Positions 3,220 through 23,662 of a stretch of DNA of 60,210 nt are shown here, piece after piece; position 1 is the first letter of the stretch, and each line of letters starts with the position of its first letter. Source of the stretch: Cyclobacteriaceae bacterium (GTDB lineage: Bacteria > Bacteroidota > Bacteroidia > Cytophagales > Cyclobacteriaceae); contig JAGQYK010000005.1 in NCBI GenBank assembly GCA_020436125.1, positions 39,342-99,551 on the forward strand. Direction: 5' to 3'. The translations under genes and the position numbers were made by a program. The notes under the pieces are model-generated. The model was not told where the DNA came from and did not search any database. It worked only from the letters and a program-made list of their open reading frames with translations.

Positions 3220-5625
3220 ATGATAAGAAACTATCTAAAGGTTGCTGTACGTAATATATTAAAATATAAATTTTTTTCAGCGATAAATATATTTGGATTA
3301 TCAATAGGAATAACATGTTGTCTTTTCATTTTTATCTACGTGTTCGATGAGCTAAGTTATGATCGCTTTCATAAGGATGTTGATCAAACTTACAGAGTGG
3401 GTTTATTCGGAAGAATGGCAGGCCAAGAGTTTAATACTGCGAGTTCAAGTTGGCCGGTAGGAGAGACCATGCAGGAAGAAATACCTGGAGTAGAATCATC
3501 CTTGAGGCTATGGCCACGGTCTTTACCAATTGTTTTTAAGTATGAGGATAAATCTTTTTCTGAAAAGGAAATAATTTACGCTGATTCCAATTTTTTTGAG
3601 TTCTTCAGTTTTAATCTATTGCAAGGTGACCCTAGCACTGTGCTAAAAGAACCAAATTCAATTGTGCTAACGCCAACCTTTGCCAGTAAATACTTTGGAG
3701 ACGAAGATCCAATTGGAAAAATACTATCAATGGGAACGGATGGCAGGGCCTTAAAGGTTACTGGATTGGTGGCTCCGGCCCCAGGAAATTCCCATTTTCA
3801 CTATGGGGCAATTATCTCGTTTATGACTGCAAAGGGTCAACTTTTTGAGGGTTGGACTGGGAATTCGCTACAGACCTATGTGAAGTTGAACGACAAAATT
3901 ACAATGAGTGAGACCAATACTAAATTGGATGATATTGTAGCTAAGTATGTGGGGCAAGAGGTAGAGCAGGGGTTGGGTATTACTTTTAAAGAGTTTAAAG
4001 AGAATGGTGGTGAATATAAGTATTACTTGTATCCTATGGCTGATACGCATCTCAATTCTCCGACTCAAGATGACATGGAACCTAATGGTGAAATGAAGTA
4101 CGTCTATATTTTCTCGCTTATTGGAGGGTTTATATTAATTATTGCCTGTATTAATTTTATGAATCTTAGCACTGCCAAATCTTCAAGTCGGGCAAAGGAA
4201 GTGGGATTAAGAAAAACACTTGGTTCTTTACGGTCTCAAATGATTTGGCAGTTTTTGGCGGAGTCAGTTGTTTATAGCCTAATTGCTATGGTCATTGCAT
4301 TGAGCCTTACCTATTTGTTGATGCCTTATTTCAATCTCTTATCAGGTAAGCAGCTTTCTTTCGAATCGCTTTTTAATATCAAATTGATTATTGGTGCGGT
4401 GGTAATGGTTTTATTTGTGGGGTTAGTAGCTGGAAGTTATCCTGCATTTTATCTCACCTCATTTAATGCAGTTGAAGTACTTAAGGGAAAACTACGTGCA
4501 GGCATGAAAAGTAAAGGGGTAAGAAGTTCGTTGGTTGTAGTTCAGTTTGCCATTTCCATATTTTTGATCATCGCTACTGCTATTGTACTTCAGCAATTAG
4601 AATATTTGCAATCCAAAAACCTGGGCCTTGACAAACAAAATGTAATTATCGTACAGAATGCCCGCAAATTGGGGAACAGCCGTCAAGCTTTCAAAAATAG
4701 TGTGCAGCAAATACCTGGTGTGGAAATTACCAGTTACACCAACAATGCTTTCCCAGGGGTAAATAATACTACAGTGTTTAAGACAAGAGGTTCTGAGCAG
4801 GAGCAATTATCCGGAACCTACTATGCGGATTATGATCACCTTGATGTCCTAAAGTTTGAAATGAAGGACGGCAGATTCTTTTCCCGCGATTACCTAAGTG
4901 ATAGCAGTGCGGTGATTGTAAATGAAGCAGCAGTAAAGCAGTTTGGTTGGGAAAATCCTGTGAATGAAGAACTGATCAGTTTCAACGGCCCAGAACCTCA
5001 AACGCTAAAAGTGATTGGAGTGGTTAAGAATTTTAACTTTGAGTCATTAAAATCTGAAGTACGCCCGCTAATAATTGCATTTACCGAACAATCTAATTTT
5101 TTATTAGTTCGCTATTCTGGTACTCCGGAGACTGTAATCAACTCGCTACAGGGTATATGGAATCAACAGGCTGGAGGAGACCCATTTGAATACACCTTTC
5201 TTGATCAGGACTTTGATGCCCTTTTCAGAGCAGAGCAAAGGCTAAAGAATATCTTTATGCTGTTTGCCGGACTAGCTGTATTTATAGCATGCCTCGGTCT
5301 TTTCGCTTTGGCAGCGTTTATAACTGAACAGCGGACCAAAGAGATCGGGATAAGAAAGGCAATGGGGGCTACAGTTCCCAATCTTACACTACTCTTATCT
5401 AGAGAATTTACAATTTTAGTCTTGATATCGTTTATTCCCGCTGCTCTTGCCGGATACTATTTTACCAGTAATTGGTTGCAAGATTTCGCCTATCGGATAA
5501 GCATCAACCCGTTGATATTTATAGTTAGTGGTATGATCGCTTTTGCAGTGGCATGGGCCACTGTAGGGTTCCAGGCAATCAAAGCTGCTCGGGCAAACCC
5601 TGTCCACTCTCTTCGATATGAGTAA
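3220..5625 (+). CDS. ABC transporter permease, FtsX/MacB family (second of two)
   Basis: This 801-residue protein is a diverged paralogue of its upstream neighbour with the same order: N-terminal helix, MacB-type periplasmic domain, FtsX domain (SRAKEVGLRKTLG), helix, second periplasmic domain and final FtsX domain (QRTKEIGIRKAMG). It ends in the family's typical ARANPVHSLRYE tail. The 92-base gap to the first permease has no clear terminator, so the two are probably co-transcribed and may form a heterodimer. Tandem paralogous permeases with a separate ATPase are common in Cytophagales genomes. The substrate is unknown. Confidence 0.92.
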   Translation: MIRNYLKVAVRNILKYKFFSAINIFGLSIGITCCLFIFIYVFDELSYDRFHKDVDQTYRVGLFGRMAGQEFNTASSSWPVGETMQEEIPGVESSLRLWPRSLPIVFKYEDKSFSEKEIIYADSNFFEFFSFNLLQGDPSTVLKEPNSIVLTPTFASKYFGDEDPIGKILSMGTDGRALKVTGLVAPAPGNSHFHYGAIISFMTAKGQLFEGWTGNSLQTYVKLNDKITMSETNTKLDDIVAKYVGQEVEQGLGITFKEFKENGGEYKYYLYPMADTHLNSPTQDDMEPNGEMKYVYIFSLIGGFILIIACINFMNLSTAKSSSRAKEVGLRKTLGSLRSQMIWQFLAESVVYSLIAMVIALSLTYLLMPYFNLLSGKQLSFESLFNIKLIIGAVVMVLFVGLVAGSYPAFYLTSFNAVEVLKGKLRAGMKSKGVRSSLVVVQFAISIFLIIATAIVLQQLEYLQSKNLGLDKQNVIIVQNARKLGNSRQAFKNSVQQIPGVEITSYTNNAFPGVNNTTVFKTRGSEQEQLSGTYYADYDHLDVLKFEMKDGRFFSRDYLSDSSAVIVNEAAVKQFGWENPVNEELISFNGPEPQTLKVIGVVKNFNFESLKSEVRPLIIAFTEQSNFLLVRYSGTPETVINSLQGIWNQQAGGDPFEYTFLDQDFDALFRAEQRLKNIFMLFAGLAVFIACLGLFALAAFITEQRTKEIGIRKAMGATVPNLTLLLSREFTILVLISFIPAALAGYYFTSNWLQDFAYRISINPLIFIVSGMIAFAVAWATVGFQAIKAARANPVHSLRYE

Positions 5626-6079
5626 ATCAAAATATCATTATTTAGTGGCAAAATAATACCCTCGGTAAATTTTCATATCTATTTTTTTTATTAAGAAAAA
5701 GCCTCGTGAAGCCCATGTGGAGAGAATACTACCACTTGTGGTACGTGCGGCATCATTTTATCGCTATACGGTCTAAAATGGCATAAAACGGTACCCCCCC
5801 AAATCGTGTTATTATTTTGGCTTTCTTAAAATACAGAAATTGCATTACATTAAATTACCATTAGTAATATTCACATAATGCTAAAATAGGTTGTTATAGA
5901 AGATTTTGATTTTTAAATTCATATCAACCTAACCTAAACCTTACATCAAATGAATAATCCAAATAGCTTGAAATTCATTGGCATGCCCTAGCATCTGGGG
6001 CATTGTCGATCAATGATGATTGTACCAATATGGTACAGTGACCACCTCATCTTTTATTATTAACCTTAACCCAAGTACT
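5626..6079 (+). other. 454-base intergenic region holding the susC-like leader
   Basis: No coding region is apparent. The first half is AT-rich and holds an imperfect dyad TACCAC-TT-GTGGTA at 5730-5743 and a C7 run near 5793. The second half, just before the SusC-like gene, has two compact hairpins, described in the next entry. A TAnnTTTG promoter could not be identified with confidence. Confidence 0.6.
5983..6037 (+). promoter_or_regulatory. two hairpins in the 5' leader of the SusC-like gene
   Basis: The first hairpin pairs ATGCCC (5983-5988) with GGGCAT (5998-6003). The second pairs TGTACC (6021-6026) with GGTACA (6032-6037) around a 5-nt loop. They lie 43-97 bases upstream of the chosen start codon, so they would be in the mRNA leader if transcription begins further up. 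A role in translation control or RNA stability is an inference. Confidence 0.4.
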
Positions 6080-9000
6080 ATGTTAAAACTGTACAACAAG
6101 AAGTTGTTCAATTCCTTCCTTATTTTGGTAGGATTGAGCTTTGCAAGCTTCGCCACCCTGGCCCAGGGTTCAATATCGGGTACGATTACCGATGCGGAGA
6201 CCGGAGATCCGGTACCGGGAGTGAATATTTTCATTCCTTCTCTTGCAAAGGGTACGCTTTCGAACGTTGACGGAACTTATCAGATTTCTGATATTCCCAA
6301 CGGATCCTACAAAGTGGTAGGAAGTTTTATTGGTTACCGCAACATGGAAGAAAATGTTTCGGTGAATAACAACTCTCAAACTTTGAATTTTGCACTGGAG
6401 ACCAGTACTACACAATTGAGCGAAATTGTAGTAACAGGTACAGGTGGCCCGATGGAGAAAAGGAAGATTGGTAACGCGGTAGGTATTATTTCTACTGAAT
6501 CGCTTTCAAATGCCCCCATCACTTCATTCTCTGACTTACTTCAGGGTCGTGAGCCGGGTATGGTTTCTATACCAGGTGGTGGATTGACTGGAGAAGGAGC
6601 TCAGATCAGAATTAGAGGATCTGCCAGTTTATCTCAATTGAACGAGCCAATCATTATTATTGATGGAGTTCGTATTGACAATGGCGGTGGATTTGGTGCT
6701 GGTGGATTTGCCGGAAACGGTGGAGGCGGTACTTCTCGTTTGGACGACATCAACCCTGAGTCGATAGCTCGTATTGAGATTCTAAAAGGTGCTGCTGCTG
6801 CTACTCTATATGGTACAGAAGCAAGTAATGGTGTAATCCAGATATTTACAAAAAGAGGAGCTACAGGAGCCCCTAAGTTTGATGTAAAGTTAGCCAAGGG
6901 TATCATAACGTATCCAAAAAATCGCTACCCAGATAACGTGGGGTGGGCAAGAGATGCGACACAGGCATCAACAATGCAATCTGTTTTGGGCGGAACTGTT
7001 GTACCCTACCAATTAGTAGAAAGAAACTTTACGGAGGATTTATTTGAAACTGGATCAAACACAGAAGCCTCAGTTGCTGCTTCTGGCGGAACAAATGCAG
7101 TTACCTATTATGTAACTGGCCGATTCTATGATGAGGATGGTCCGTTTGGAGGTAAGGATAATAGAGGCTATAAACCTGGGCAAGCAACATTGGCTGAAGA
7201 CTTAATGAAGCGTGTTCAATTGAATGCCAATGTGGGTATTATTCCATCTGGTAAGACCAAGATCAACATTGTTACTGGTTACAATAAAACTGCATTCTCG
7301 TCACTTCAAACGAACAACAACATTTATGCTGTAGGTTCATTGGCGCAGTTTAGTAAGCCAGAAAGGGTTGCTGCTAATAATCTAACAGGAACTGCAGCAT
7401 TTGCAACGGTAAACGAGTCGATGCAGCAAACAGTTACGCAAAATGTAAATCACTATAATGGAAGTGTAAATGTTAACTATAACCCTATTCCATGGTTGAT
7501 TTTAGATGCTGTTGTTGGGGTCGATTACTCGAGCTCTATTGCTGAAAACTATAGACCGTTCGGTTGGAATATTGATGCATTTGGTAACAGCGAGCCAGAC
7601 GGTTCAAAAGCTTATACCAATCGCGATTTTATTGCCACTTCAATGCAGTTCAATGCGTCTGCAACAAATAAAATCAGTGACAATATCGAATCTGACTTTA
7701 TTGTCGGTTCGCAGTTGATACAGCAAAAGACCAGCATTTTCTCTGGAAATGGAGTTGCTTTTCCTGGCCCTGGATTTGCCGTTGCCGGAGCAGGAGCTAA
7801 CAAGGATATCTATCAATTCTTTTCGGAAACGATTAATGCTGGAGTATATGCTCAGGAGCAAATAGGCATTAATGATCATTTATTTATAACACTTGGTGCT
7901 CGTTTAGATGCACACAGTGCATTTGGTTCTAATTTCAATGCACAGTTTTATCCAAAGGTCGCTGCATCTTACGTAGTATCTGATGCCCCTTACTGGCCTG
8001 GAAATTTAGGCCCGATTAGCTCATTACAGTTCAAAGGATCTTTTGGTCAGTCTGGTCTTCAGCCTGGAGCATTTGATGCCCAAACAACCTACAGGGCGAT
8101 TGCTTCTACAACCGGTGCGGGTATTGCTCCTCAAAACTTAGGTAACCCCGATTTGAAGCCTGAAGTATCAGCAGAGTTGGAAGTGGGTACAAGTATTGGT
8201 TTATGGAACGGTAAATTGACATTTGATGCCACTTACTGGGATAGAACGGTTACTGATGCCTTGTTTGCTCAGCAATTCCCATTGTCCGGTGGATGGAGAC
8301 AGCCACAACTTGTAAATATTGGAGAGCTAGCAGCAAAAGGTATGGAATTGGGGCTAACAGCCACGGTTGTTAATACAGGTGACCTTAAAGTTGATATTTT
8401 TGCTAATGCCGCCTACCTGAATGAGGAAGTTATTAGTTTGGGTGGTGCACCTCCTGTAAAAGTAGGAGGAAGTTACCCACGATATAGAAACTTCTTGGTA
8501 GAAGGATACTCTCCTGGAGCCAATTTTGGTGTAAAGCTACTTGATGTTCCAGATGGCTTCTTGCCTTTGGATTATAATAGCGATGGTAACCCAGACTCTA
8601 GAGCAGAAGTAGTTAGTTATTTAGGAACTTTGCCTCTTGGGGCTTCACTACCTACGACTACTTCAATTGTTATGCTGGATGAAAATTATACCACTGCAGG
8701 CGAGCAATCGGTGTCTGGTCATTTCCTGGGTAAGACAACCCCAGATTGGCAAGGGGCGATTGGAGGAACCGTTACATACAAGAATTTTGTTTTACGGACT
8801 AATTTTGAATACCGAACAGGAAATTACTATGTGAATAACCTTACTGCCGCTTTCCGTCAGGCCAATGGTACTATTGGACGTAACCTTCCGAACTCAGCCC
8901 GTGTAGAAAGAGACTATTACACTGGAGGTGTAGATGCTAGCTTCAACCCACAATTAAGCGGTGAGGTGAGAGCAGCAGCGGTTGAGGAATGGGTAAATGA

Positions 9001-19323: not shown

Positions 19324-19827
19324 TTAAACGTATTGAGTATAAGTGTTGATAATCCTTTCTAGCCAAAAAGTATATTGTTCAGGATTCTCCTTGATCTTAT
19401 CCTTCAGTAATGAAGGCTCTACATAGGTCCAACCTTCTACTTCTTCCAAATTGATATTTGGTTCTCCGTCAAACTCACAAACAAACACGTGATCCAACTC
19501 ATGCTCAATCAAATCTCCAAGATTGGCTTTATACTGAAATTTGTATAAATATTGAGGGTGTGCATCAATCCCCAGCTCCTCTTTCATTCTTCGGGTGGTA
19601 GCAGCTGCTAAAGTTTCTTCTGGTCTGGGATGGCTACAGCAGGCATTGGACCATAATCCTCCGCTGTGGTATTTGGATTTAGCTCTTTTTTGTAACAGCA
19701 TTTCCCCTTTACTATTAAATACCAAAACAGAGAAGGCCCTATGTAAGGCACCTTTACGGTGAGCTTCCATTTTTTCCATTGTCCCTATTTGTTGGTCTTC
19801 TTCGTCCACCAAGATCACATGCTCCAT
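19324..19827 (-). CDS. idi: isopentenyl-diphosphate delta-isomerase, type I
   Basis: This 167-residue Nudix-fold enzyme interconverts IPP and DMAPP in the cytoplasm, supplying the starter unit for isoprenoid chains. Characteristic parts are the HRAFSVLVFNSKGEMLLQKRA strand-turn, the active-site cysteine in SNACCSHPRP, and the Nudix-type helix with RRMKEELG. It is the last gene of the minus-strand block regulator, sigma factor, crtI, crtB, idi, only 7 bases after crtB. Its presence in the operon suggests precursor supply is raised together with carotenoid synthesis. Confidence 0.96.
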   Translation of the reverse strand: MEHVILVDEEDQQIGTMEKMEAHRKGALHRAFSVLVFNSKGEMLLQKRAKSKYHSGGLWSNACCSHPRPEETLAAATTRRMKEELGIDAHPQYLYKFQYKANLGDLIEHELDHVFVCEFDGEPNINLEEVEGWTYVEPSLLKDKIKENPEQYTFWLERIINTYTQYV

Positions 19828-19834
19828 AAAATAT

Positions 19835-20677
19835 TTAAATAAGATTGAGTTGGTGTTTAAGATAGGAGAAAAATAATATCGAAAACTTGTGCCTGTTTCT
19901 GATCCTTATCCTTTTTTTCATTACGTATTCTGAAGGGGTATTCCTTATTTTTTTAAAGAGTGAAAGGTAATATAGGTATGCTACATAAACTCCTAACTTC
20001 GAACCTCTTGGAAGCTGTTGGATGCCCTTATACCCTTCTTGGAAATCTTCAGCAATACTGTCTTCAATCTGCTTCTTGGCATCGTCATCAAATGCATCTA
20101 AATCAATGCCTGGAAAATAGGATCTACCCATTCCTATGTAATCCGCATTAAGATCACGAAGGAAATTTATTTTTTGAAATGCTGAGCCCAATCTCATGGC
20201 CATTGGCTTAAGGTGATCGTAGGTGGATGCATCTCCATTACAAAATACTTTTAAACACATCAGGCCGACTACTTCAGCAGAACCTAGCACGTATTCTTCA
20301 AAGGATTTCTGATCATAACTTTTTTCATTGAGATCCATTTCCATACTGTGTAGGAATTGCTCAATTAAGATGTGATCAATATTGTATTGATGTACAGTAA
20401 GTTGAAAACTCTGTAAAATGGGGTTAAGACTTATCTTATCATCAATCGCTTTATAGGTTTCCTTTTTAAAATTATCCAAGAGGGCTTTTTTGTCATATTG
20501 ATGAAAGGTGTCTACGATTTCATCAGCAAACCTCACAAAGCCGTATATGGAGTAGATAGGGTCTCTTAATTCTTTATGAAGACACAATATGCCTAAAGAA
20601 AAGGAGGTGCTGTAGGCCTTTGTAGTGAGCCTTGAACATTTTATGGCATTTTTATCGTATAGTTCTTTTGGTGTCAT
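19835..20677 (-). CDS. crtB: phytoene synthase
   Basis: This 280-residue squalene/phytoene synthase joins two geranylgeranyl diphosphates head to head into phytoene. The two aspartate-rich metal-binding motifs are present as FADEIVD and FLRDLNAD, and SAEVVGLMCLKVF and GSAFQKINFLRD are the flanking family signatures. Length and start (MTPKELYDKNAIKCSRLTTKAYSTSF, carrying the substrate-binding YSTSF) are typical for Bacteroidota CrtB. The gene follows crtI by 20 bases and precedes idi by 7. Confidence 0.96.
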   Translation of the reverse strand: MTPKELYDKNAIKCSRLTTKAYSTSFSLGILCLHKELRDPIYSIYGFVRFADEIVDTFHQYDKKALLDNFKKETYKAIDDKISLNPILQSFQLTVHQYNIDHILIEQFLHSMEMDLNEKSYDQKSFEEYVLGSAEVVGLMCLKVFCNGDASTYDHLKPMAMRLGSAFQKINFLRDLNADYIGMGRSYFPGIDLDAFDDDAKKQIEDSIAEDFQEGYKGIQQLPRGSKLGVYVAYLYYLSLFKKIRNTPSEYVMKKRIRIRNRHKFSILFFSYLKHQLNLI

Positions 20678-20697: not shown

Positions 20698-22182
20698 CTA
20701 GTTATTGGATTTTCTTTTCTCTCTTTTTATCAATTCTTGAGCCACTACTTGTCCGGATATCAGAGATGGAGGTACCCCTGGCCCGGGAACAGTCAATTGC
20801 CCCGTATAAAACAGATTAGAAACCTTTTTGTTTACTATAGATGGTTTTAAATTGGCCGTCTGCCTGATGGTATTAGCCAATCCGTATGCGTTTCCTTTGT
20901 AAGAATTATAGTTTTCAATGAAGTCGCGGTGAGCGTAACTCCTTTTATAGACAATGTTAGAAGCAATTGATTGACCCGTTAGTTTTTCAATTCTTTGAAT
21001 AACGATTTGAAAATATTTTTCGCGTGTAGTTTCTTCATCTTCAAGCCCCGCAGCTACTGGTATAAGTATAAACAAGTTTTCGTGTCCTTCCGGAGCCACT
21101 GAAGTGTCAGTTTTGGAGGGGCAGCACACATAAAATAGGGGGTTGGTTGGCCATGAAGGATTTTGATAAATTTCTTTTGTGTGAACGGCAAAATCTTCAT
21201 CAAAAAAAAGATTATGGTGATGAAGGTTGTCTAACCTTTTGTTAACCCCCAAATAGAATATTAAACTGGAAGGTGCGAGTTTTCGATTTTCCCAGTAGTC
21301 TTCATCGTACTTCCTGAATTTTTTGGGTAATAGCTGTTGTTCAACATGATGATAGTCTGCTCCGGCTATTACATGGTCAACTGACTCATTGCGTCCATTT
21401 ATAGTGATGGACTTTACTTTTGTGCTATTCATGTTTAATGATTGCACATTGCTATTGAATTCGAACTTTACTCCTTTTTCTTTGGCTAATGTTACCATTG
21501 CTTCAACGATCTTGTTCATACCACCCTTTGGATACCATGTACCCAATACCATATCTGCGTAATTCATTAGGCTATAAAGGGCAGGAGTATCAGACGGAGC
21601 GGCTCCCAGAAATAATACTGGAAATTCAAGTAACTGTATTAACCTCGGGGACTTAAAGTATTTTCTTATGTAGGTGCTAATCGATTGAAGAACATGAAGC
21701 TTAAATACTCCCTTTATAAGCTTGGTGTCCATCAGTTCTATCACTGATAAACCTGGCTTGTAAACGAGGTCCTCTATACCCACTTTGTATTTGTACGCAG
21801 CTTCTTCAAGAAATTGTTTGAGTTGTACACTACTTCCTTTTTCTACTTTTTCAAAGAATTGGTATAGATCTTCTAATCCCGAAGGGATATCCCAGATTTC
21901 ATCCTTATTAAAAAAAACCCGATAGGAGGGACTAAGACGTTCTAATTCGTAGTAATCAGAAACGGATTTACCAAAGCGATTAAAATATTTTTCAAAGACA
22001 TCTGGCATCCAATACCAGCTTGGCCCCATGTCAAACACATATCCATCAGACTCGAATTTTCTTGCACGTCCTCCAGCTGTTTCGTTCTTTTCATAAACGG
22101 TTACATCAAAGCCTTCCGCAGCTAGTGTGGTAGCCGCTGAAATTCCAGCGAACCCTGAGCCTATAACCGCTATTTTCTCCAT
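20698..22182 (-). CDS. crtI: phytoene desaturase (CrtI family)
   Basis: The 494-residue flavoprotein opens with the dinucleotide-binding motif IGSGFAGISAATTLAAEG and the CrtI continuation EKNETAGGRAR, followed by FDMGPSWYWMPDVFE. Near the C-terminus it has the carotenoid dehydrogenase signature (LFYTGQLTVPGPGVPPSLISG). It introduces the successive double bases converting phytoene to lycopene. It is the first biosynthetic gene after the ECF sigma factor (26-base gap) and is tightly followed by crtB. With crtY and crtZ in the neighbouring block the set is complete for zeaxanthin. Confidence 0.96.
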   Translation of the reverse strand: MEKIAVIGSGFAGISAATTLAAEGFDVTVYEKNETAGGRARKFESDGYVFDMGPSWYWMPDVFEKYFNRFGKSVSDYYELERLSPSYRVFFNKDEIWDIPSGLEDLYQFFEKVEKGSSVQLKQFLEEAAYKYKVGIEDLVYKPGLSVIELMDTKLIKGVFKLHVLQSISTYIRKYFKSPRLIQLLEFPVLFLGAAPSDTPALYSLMNYADMVLGTWYPKGGMNKIVEAMVTLAKEKGVKFEFNSNVQSLNMNSTKVKSITINGRNESVDHVIAGADYHHVEQQLLPKKFRKYDEDYWENRKLAPSSLIFYLGVNKRLDNLHHHNLFFDEDFAVHTKEIYQNPSWPTNPLFYVCCPSKTDTSVAPEGHENLFILIPVAAGLEDEETTREKYFQIVIQRIEKLTGQSIASNIVYKRSYAHRDFIENYNSYKGNAYGLANTIRQTANLKPSIVNKKVSNLFYTGQLTVPGPGVPPSLISGQVVAQELIKREKRKSNN

Positions 22183-22208: not shown

Positions 22209-22712
22209 CTACTTATAAGCTATCAATTTTTTTTGAATTTCTTTCCTGGCATGAAATATTCTGTTTTTGACAGTTCCTATTGGGATATTTAGATGCTCTG
22301 CGATTTCATGGTATTTATACCCAGTGGTATACATTTTAAAAGGGATTTGGAGCTCTTCTTTTACCTCGTTTACATTTTCCCACATTTCTTTAAACTCCAT
22401 TGATTTTTCAGGTCGATTAAAGGTGTGCGTATCTGCAACGTTAAGGTAGTATAGCTCTTTTGTATTGTCTGTTGACGTTTTGGCTATTTTGGCTTTTCTA
22501 TAGTTGTTGATAAACGTATTTCTCATAATGGTGAACAGCCACCCTTTAAGGTTGGTATCTGACCTGAATTTGTCTCTATAAGTAAGTGCCTTCAACATAG
22601 TGTCTTGCACCAAATCCTGAGATTCTTCAGCATTACGCGTAAATCTGTAAGTAAACCCTTTTAGCGTATCATTCAGGGCTGTTATCTGGGCGGTAAATTC
22701 GGCTGATGTCAT
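22209..22712 (-). CDS. ECF-type RNA polymerase sigma factor
   Basis: Starting from the ATG at 22712 (an upstream in-frame start adds an unlikely hydrophobic leader), this 167-residue protein has only sigma regions 2 and 4. Region 2 shows EESQDLVQDTMLKAL and TNLKGWLFTIMRNTFINNYR. Region 4 carries the helix-turn-helix YHEIAEHLNIPIGTVKNRIFHARK. No anti-sigma gene is adjacent. It lies between the cobalamin-binding MerR regulator and crtI on the same strand, an arrangement resembling LitR/LitS of Streptomyces, where light releases the regulator and the ECF factor turns on carotenoid genes. That it controls the crt and photolyase promoters is inferred. Confidence 0.93.
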   Translation of the reverse strand: MTSAEFTAQITALNDTLKGFTYRFTRNAEESQDLVQDTMLKALTYRDKFRSDTNLKGWLFTIMRNTFINNYRKAKIAKTSTDNTKELYYLNVADTHTFNRPEKSMEFKEMWENVNEVKEELQIPFKMYTTGYKYHEIAEHLNIPIGTVKNRIFHARKEIQKKLIAYK

Positions 22713-22811
22713 ATTGTTTAATAGTTTATAGTTAAAGTTAAACAAAATATTAACCAATACAAATTTTGGATACAAATGTTTAGCTTAATTTAATATATAT
22801 TAAACAATATG

Positions 22812-23662
22812 CTAAAAATCGGCTAAAATGGCCTTTAGTGCGATGGCGTTTTTGATCACCTTAAAATTGGAGCGCTGCGGAATGTTCTTCGGATCGGGGT
22901 TGCCTCCAATGAGTATGAGGGGTGTTGGAAAATCTTGATCTTTTGGGGCCTCTGAGAGGCAATAATGGAGGTTATAATTATAGCTGGTTCATGCTTTGCG
23001 CATACCTGTTTAAGGTCGTCATAAGGTAAATGCTGGCCCAAATAAAAGGTTTTATAGCCACAGGCTCTTACTAAATAGTGATAGAACAATAGGCCAATCT
23101 CATGAAGCTCGTTTTCAGGCAAAAAAAGAACAACCTTAATGGCGTTTGGCTTTGGGAAAGGTAGCGAGTCGATGGCCACTATTATTTTCTGCCGCACTAA
23201 ATTGGAAATGAAATGCTCCTGAGCAGGTGTAATATTTCCTGTTTGCCATAGAATTCCAATTTTCTCCAAAAAGGGATATACAATTTCTGTGATGGTCCTT
23301 TCAAAACCAAACTTCATAATGAGATGGGAGAGTAGCTTCTCAAATTGCTCTTCTTCCATATCAATCATACAGACCACGAGTTGGTCTATAAAAATGCTCG
23401 CCTCACTTTTACTTTCTGCAAGTTGTACAATTTCCGAGTTGAGCTCTGGGTCAGTCATTCGGGCTATCTTTGAAATCTTCAGCCCACTGTTATTGAGTAA
23501 AGAAACATTAATAATTTTCTTCAGGTCATCATCAGAATAATACCGGATATTGGTTGTTGTCCTTTTAGGGGCAATGATATTGTGCCTTTTCTCCCATATC
23601 CTTATCGTGTGGGCCTTAATACCAGACAGTGTTTCAAGTTCTTTGATGGAATAACTTCCCAT
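22812..23662 (-). CDS. MerR-family cobalamin-binding (CarH/LitR-like) regulator, frameshifted near the 3' end
   Basis: Residues 1-70 are a MerR winged helix-turn-helix (YSIKELETLSGIKAHTIRIWEKR). They are followed by a helical bundle with W139-x9-E149-H150 and a B12-binding domain with E185-x-H187-x2-G190 (ELHEIG). These are the cobalamin contacts known from CarH photoreceptors, which repress carotenoid genes in the dark with adenosylcobalamin and release DNA in light. The open frame stops at 22856 after an unlikely tail. One base added in the run at 22941-22948 (four C then four A on the coding strand) restores FPTPLILIGGNPDPKNIP and an end at 22812. This may be a sequencing error, a recent mutation or frameshifting. 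Residues up to about 240 are intact. Confidence 0.88.

Follow-up and report, generated by a model that had tools for sequence, protein, structure and literature searches.

The closest described systems are the CarH and class I LitR proteins of Thermus thermophilus, Bacillus megaterium and Myxococcus xanthus, which combine a MerR domain and a four-helix bundle with a Rossmann cobalamin domain and are linked to carotenoid genes. According to the accessible part of PMC8156234, the B12 form of characterised CarH acts as a repressor in the dark, and binding by the apo forms is poor; their operators contain repeats with the core TnnACA, according to the accessible part of PMC9304148. The window, the whole 60,210-nucleotide stretch of a Cyclobacteriaceae genome analysed here (contig JAGQYK010000005.1 of assembly GCA_020436125.1), contains a probable CarH/LitR-type B12 light sensor gene with a broken reading frame, beside genes for an ECF sigma factor and carotenoid synthesis that appear intact (Table 1).

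Table 1. Features of the regulator locus, in positions of the window.
Feature	Position	Strand	Basis or remark
MerR/B12 (CarH/LitR class I-like) regulator	22856..23662	-	Frame broken, the ORF listed for the window encoding 268 aa; Pfam, phmmer and fold matches
C4A4 run, equal in length in L031, not the lesion	22941..22948	-	DNA alignment
Deletion junction, 25 bp gone relative to L031	22935..22939	-	DNA alignment and gap-length scan; 3-bp microhomology, four placements equivalent
Remnant of original C-terminus in the second frame, alignable to relatives	22812..22937	-	Match to L031 residues 251-290 at 67.5%
Inverted repeat TGTTTA-N18-TAAACA, copy 1 (candidate operator)	22777..22806		Repeat scans
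Inverted repeat TGTTTA-N18-TAAACA, copy 2, adjoining sigma gene start	22715..22744		Repeat scans
ECF sigma factor, intact	22209..22709	-	ORF, Pfam, match to L031
CrtI-like protein, presumably phytoene desaturase, intact	20698..22182	-	Position and Amino_oxidase family
CrtB-like phytoene synthase, intact	19835..20677	-	SQS_PSY, 3.4e-43
NUDIX protein, presumably Idi-like, intact	19324..19827	-	ORF, Pfam, match to L031

Several lines of evidence bear out the CarH/LitR-like identity that the first-pass annotation had proposed. The window product matches the Pfam families MerR_1 (2e-15) and B12-binding_2 (2.6e-11), and its nearest solved structures are Thermus CarH/LitR both by sequence (3WHP and 5C8D, the latter at 2.5e-20 with phmmer) and by fold (5C8E and 5C8D). 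A scan of genomes yielded 113 relatives of the regulator, the best 80 of which (loci L031-L110, with the start of L077 cut by a contig end) are the basis of the counts given below; the closest is L031 of Flammeovirgaceae bacterium UBA2338, with 89% amino-acid identity. The N-terminal MerR DNA-binding domain, MerR_1, is present in all four of these 80 that were scanned with Pfam. The window product has no match to the Pfam Rossmann family PF02310, an absence of little weight, as two of the four unbroken relatives scanned also have no match and the other two fall below the curated cut-off. The residues W139, E149, H150, E185, H187 and G190 are all at the positions first assigned to them. The Wx9EH motif is found in the window product and in every one of the best 80 of 113 relatives, ExHx2G in 71 of these 80, and the full motif ExHx2Gx41SxV/Tx22-27GG, in relaxed form, in 47, of which 45 have SG rather than GG; L031 itself carries a nearly exact full motif (SxI, x26, GG). 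A motif search found no [GS]G beyond residue 240 of the window product, and by this result and the predicted structure described below its Rossmann subdomain, GG region included, is incomplete. No second homologue of the regulator was found in its own genome at E <= 0.001; the single other MerR_1 match there comes from a 114-aa open frame. The genome also encodes a cobalamin adenosyltransferase (PF01923, 6.4e-59).

The surroundings of the gene are conserved as well. In 77 of the 80 loci (best 80 of 113) the regulator is followed downstream by a same-strand homologue of the ECF sigma factor, at most 400 bp from the regulator stop in 61 of the 80, and crtI, crtB and idi are present in 53, 52 and 50 of the 80, respectively, some loci being short. 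One cultured species with this cluster is Ohtaekwangia koreensis (L044). This arrangement points to a circuit of B12, light, sigma factor and carotenoids that is widely conserved in Bacteroidota, and the broken regulator probably controls the adjoining, intact-looking pigment genes. A search of 58 genomes, including that of the window, found a regulator match in 40, the closest relative among them being 80% identical. Among the other 35 genomes of the genus, the regulator and the sigma factor (E <= 1e-30) occur in the same 22, all of which also have crtB or at least fragments of it. Three genomes of the genus have crtB matches but no regulator: G010 is 81% complete and its crtB starts at base 2 of a contig, G028 is in 810 contigs and its crtB match covers a 115-residue part only, and G016 is 95% complete in 10 contigs. 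The carotenoid genes of G016 are in the same place, adjoining the same helicase, and a gene for a Cys/Met-metabolism PLP enzyme (PF01053, 3e-118) occupies the position of the regulator and sigma factor; no exact operator-like repeat was found within the 14 kb of this locus (L121, G016:C1:727000-741000). The pathway genes can therefore persist without the regulator. In another locus (L122, G019:C182:15000-26000) crtB matches in four pieces at 5520-6346, either because the pigment gene is broken or because the draft is in error; the regulator and sigma factor each match in one piece there, and two operator-like repeats are present.

As judged by alignment, the lesion is a 25-bp deletion relative to the relatives of the gene, which shifts the frame in the B12 domain. 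When the DNA of the window and L031 was aligned across the upstream region, the gene and the downstream spacer, one long gap of 25 bases was found, directly past the C4A4 run, which is of equal length in both with one C/T difference. A scan of gap lengths from 0 to 39 bases through L031 gave 79 matches at 100 positions for a gap of 25, and at most 63 for every other length. In translation, residues 1-242 of L031 fit one frame of the window and residues 251-290 fit the next, and an alignment with 29 relatives from the genome search places the residues absent from the window between two conserved stretches. Other close relatives also possess the missing residues, and the loss therefore occurred in the window. 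The open frame does end at 22856 in an odd tail, as described at first, and this in-frame tail is not common to the relatives; the second frame resembles them and stops at 22812. Thus a break in the B12 domain with a second frame was correctly recognized, but its attribution to a single base in the run at 22941-22948 was not. Since 25 is three times eight plus one, a single added base is enough to restore the frame, which would still be eight residues short: a frame restored by one base can conceal a larger deletion. A GATTTT direct repeat at the junction, suggested by amino-acid resemblance, was dropped after the comparison with L031, which gives a junction microhomology of 3 bp.

The predicted structures place the lesion within the fold that holds cobalamin. 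In the AF2 model of L031 (mean pLDDT 90.0), which aligns to 5C8E and 5C8D over approximately its whole length and so represents the Rossmann B12-binding subdomain of the relatives, the missing residues 243-250 fall inside helix 239-252, downstream of which are strands 257-262 and 275-277 and helix 281-290. In the model of the window product (mean pLDDT 84.0), residues 237-255 are below 50, a short helix (264-267) remains, and both strands and the last helix are absent. The published cobalamin motif extends into the lost C-terminal part, according to the accessible part of PMC8156234, so the window product is likely to have lost cobalamin binding and to be unable to hold adenosylcobalamin. The lesion is probably null, although the DNA-binding domain and four-helix bundle, predicted intact, could keep some activity. 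By analogy with CarH, it is plausible that the organism would produce carotenoids in dark and light alike. LitR of Streptomyces is reportedly a positive regulator; on that model, pigment would be lost.

The body of the gene is under strong constraint, and the window branch carries no excess of changes. Over the intact body, comparison of the window with L031 gave dN 0.059, dS 1.358 and dN/dS 0.043, a low ratio that mostly reflects time before the deletion, with dS near saturation at 1.36; of the 27 amino-acid differences, 5 were assigned to the window branch and 11 to the L031 branch, with 11 unresolved. The remnant tail has a dN/dS of 0.252 against L031, with three changes in the window, four in L031 and six unresolved, and the three further tail pairs for which a ratio could be computed gave 0.245-0.391, with saturated dS. 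By this measure the tail downstream of the deletion has decayed no further than those of the relatives. Neither dN/dS nor the polarised changes gave any sign of relaxed selection on the window gene, in a test with little power for a recent event. The lesion, seen in one assembly, is probably recent. The first-pass annotation had listed a recent inactivating mutation among its options, and this is the option favoured by the 25-bp deletion, the strong constraint elsewhere in the gene and the predicted loss of the fold.

The preferred reading, with a probability of roughly three in four, is that an intact CarH/LitR-type light regulator of the ECF sigma factor and carotenoid operon was inherited and then inactivated, probably recently, by the 25-bp deletion. 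The ancestor would have possessed a B12-dependent regulator controlling the adjoining genes. A deletion in this genome, perhaps through replication slippage at the 3-bp microhomology, would have removed eight residues of the Rossmann helix and shifted the frame, with loss of the final part of the cobalamin-binding fold, two strands and the last helix. The product would then be null and the carotenoid genes uncoupled from light, and constitutive if the regulator represses.

It is unlikely that the deletion is an artefact of assembly, binning or strain mixture, in which an intact population would be represented by a consensus that took a deleted variant. Such an origin would suit a draft of 216 contigs (92% complete, 2.5% contamination), a gene otherwise free of decay, and a lesion found in no other genome, whether in the 58-genome search or among the best 80 of 113 relatives. 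However, the junction microhomology with L031 is probably too short, at 3 bp, to mislead a k-mer assembly, and the lesion sits about 62 kb into a contig of 99.5 kb. A general assembly error was rejected: among the 14 ORFs of L031 of at least 100 aa that were matched to the window, covering about 15.2-31.2 kb of it, the regulator alone is broken and the other 13 are unbroken. Very unlikely is a functional short form able to bind DNA in the absence of B12, in the manner of class II LitR, which keeps the four-helix bundle only. Proteins of that class exist, one of them being a repressor according to the accessible part of PMC9758184, and the domains it would need are those predicted to be intact; against it, the tail is frameshifted and of low predicted confidence, and two characterised apo-CarH proteins bind their operator poorly, according to the accessible part of PMC8156234. 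An early stop, which would have made the short form normal, was found in none of the best 80 of 113 relatives, all of which reach 288-298 aa, and at the lesion position none of the relatives examined shows a frameshift; the short form is therefore not normal and slippage is not conserved, and the gene does not belong to a lineage of short proteins of the class II kind. Homopolymer error or -1 ribosomal slippage into two protein forms on the C4A4 run, suggested by the one base that reopens the frame to 22812, can be dismissed almost entirely as sole cause, since the run is not one base longer in L031 as the first proposal would have it, 25 other bases are missing, the relatives require no shift, and eight residues would still be absent.

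Besides the deletion, the locus has a candidate operator: the inverted repeat TGTTTA-N18-TAAACA is probably the operator of the regulator, as judged from its distribution. Across the window and 61 loci, the spacers between the regulator and the sigma gene contain GTTTA/TAAAC 229 times, against 61 +/- 7 in shuffled sequences. In the 80 loci (best 80 of 113), TGTTTA and TAAACA are separated by 18 bases in 88 cases, by 19 in 14, by 11 in eight, and by any other distance from 4 to 40 in 0-2. Of the 88 repeats with spacing 18, 82 are found no more than 300 bp upstream of the sigma gene and are spread over 62 of 77 loci; the best matches in the remaining 15 loci, counted with no control, have one mismatch in nine, two in three and three in three. 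In 78 upstream stretches of 150 bp, including that of the window, there are 80 sites in 61 stretches, two of them in the window (shuffle mean 0.02, maximum 1), and of 20 cases in which two sites fall within 300 bp, 17 have a distance of 62-64 bp between them. A looser scan of the whole window (up to three mismatches) found four places, a count unremarkable by itself as eight of 100 shuffles reach it, and the best two, with 0 and 2 mismatches, were the copies listed in Table 1.

Genome-wide, the stricter repeat occurs in 31 of 58 genomes, compared with eight of 58 for the control, the same pattern read backwards. Within the genus the stricter repeat is found in 15 of the 22 regulator-bearing genomes and one of the 13 others (Fisher p 0.001, uncorrected for kinship), although in two of the 15 (G025 and G034) it lies elsewhere than at the regulator. 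Against the operator reading, seven of the 22 genomes with the regulator have no strict form, and G028 and G037 carry it without a regulator match. A second exact operator-like place in the genome of the window, C18:3106, lies inside an ABC-transporter-like frame beside an AraC-type regulator and was set aside as probably due to chance. In other families, exact copies of the stricter repeat number three in G039, four in G046, three in G050 and five in G051; some are beside the regulator gene (G046 and G050), one is near the sigma gene far from the regulator (G039), and others are elsewhere. A larger regulon is possible in these families. We infer that the MerR protein, and not the sigma factor or another factor, binds the repeat.

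A literature search that covered titles and abstract openings, with subscription journals mostly outside its scope, found among the papers listed none on a CarH/LitR operator in Bacteroidota. There may be a CarH switch, so far undescribed, in Cytophagales and other Bacteroidota, in which a B12 regulator acts on an ECF sigma gene through the putative inverted-repeat operator TGTTTA-N18-TAAACA, often duplicated at a distance of about 63 bp, and of which the window would be a natural regulator-null that has kept both operators, the sigma factor and the carotenoid genes; this proposal could as readily hold as fail. If it is true, comparison of the window with a sister species tests light control of the whole cascade. 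The break is ordinary gene loss, adjoining a well-conserved light-response cluster; the allele is ordinary as a mutation, and the conserved candidate operator, sharply defined and directly testable, is the part worth following.

The window gene shares with CarH and class I LitR the MerR domain, the four-helix bundle, the Wx9EH and ExHx2G motifs and the linkage to carotenoid genes, and its relatives share the Rossmann cobalamin domain, but the window product stops short of a complete Rossmann fold. Directly following the W of Wx9EH, Thermus CarH has His132, which ligates cobalt after light; the window has Gln there, and among the best 80 of 113 relatives Gln prevails (61), ahead of Leu (14), His (three) and Ile (two). 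With His so rare, the light state may differ in this group. The likely operator here is an inverted repeat, in contrast to the tandem 11-bp direct repeats of the CarH systems, though its half-site TAAACA fits TnnACA. Tandem direct 11-bp repeats with TnnACA gave no pairs in the window stretch and four matches in three of the 78 upstream stretches (shuffle mean 1.54, maximum 6), and a three-repeat tandem form gave one match in one of the 78 (mean and maximum 0 in 50 shuffles). LitR-LitS of Streptomyces coelicolor resembles the window in that a regulator of the LitR type neighbours carotenoid genes and an ECF sigma factor gene, but it belongs to a different phylum and its LitR reportedly acts positively, so the effect of loss may differ. 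The class II LitR proteins of Pseudomonas (PplR/PmlR2) keep the DNA-binding domain and four-helix bundle and have no full Rossmann cobalamin domain, according to the accessible part of PMC9758184; whereas these are established families, the window holds a single frameshifted allele.
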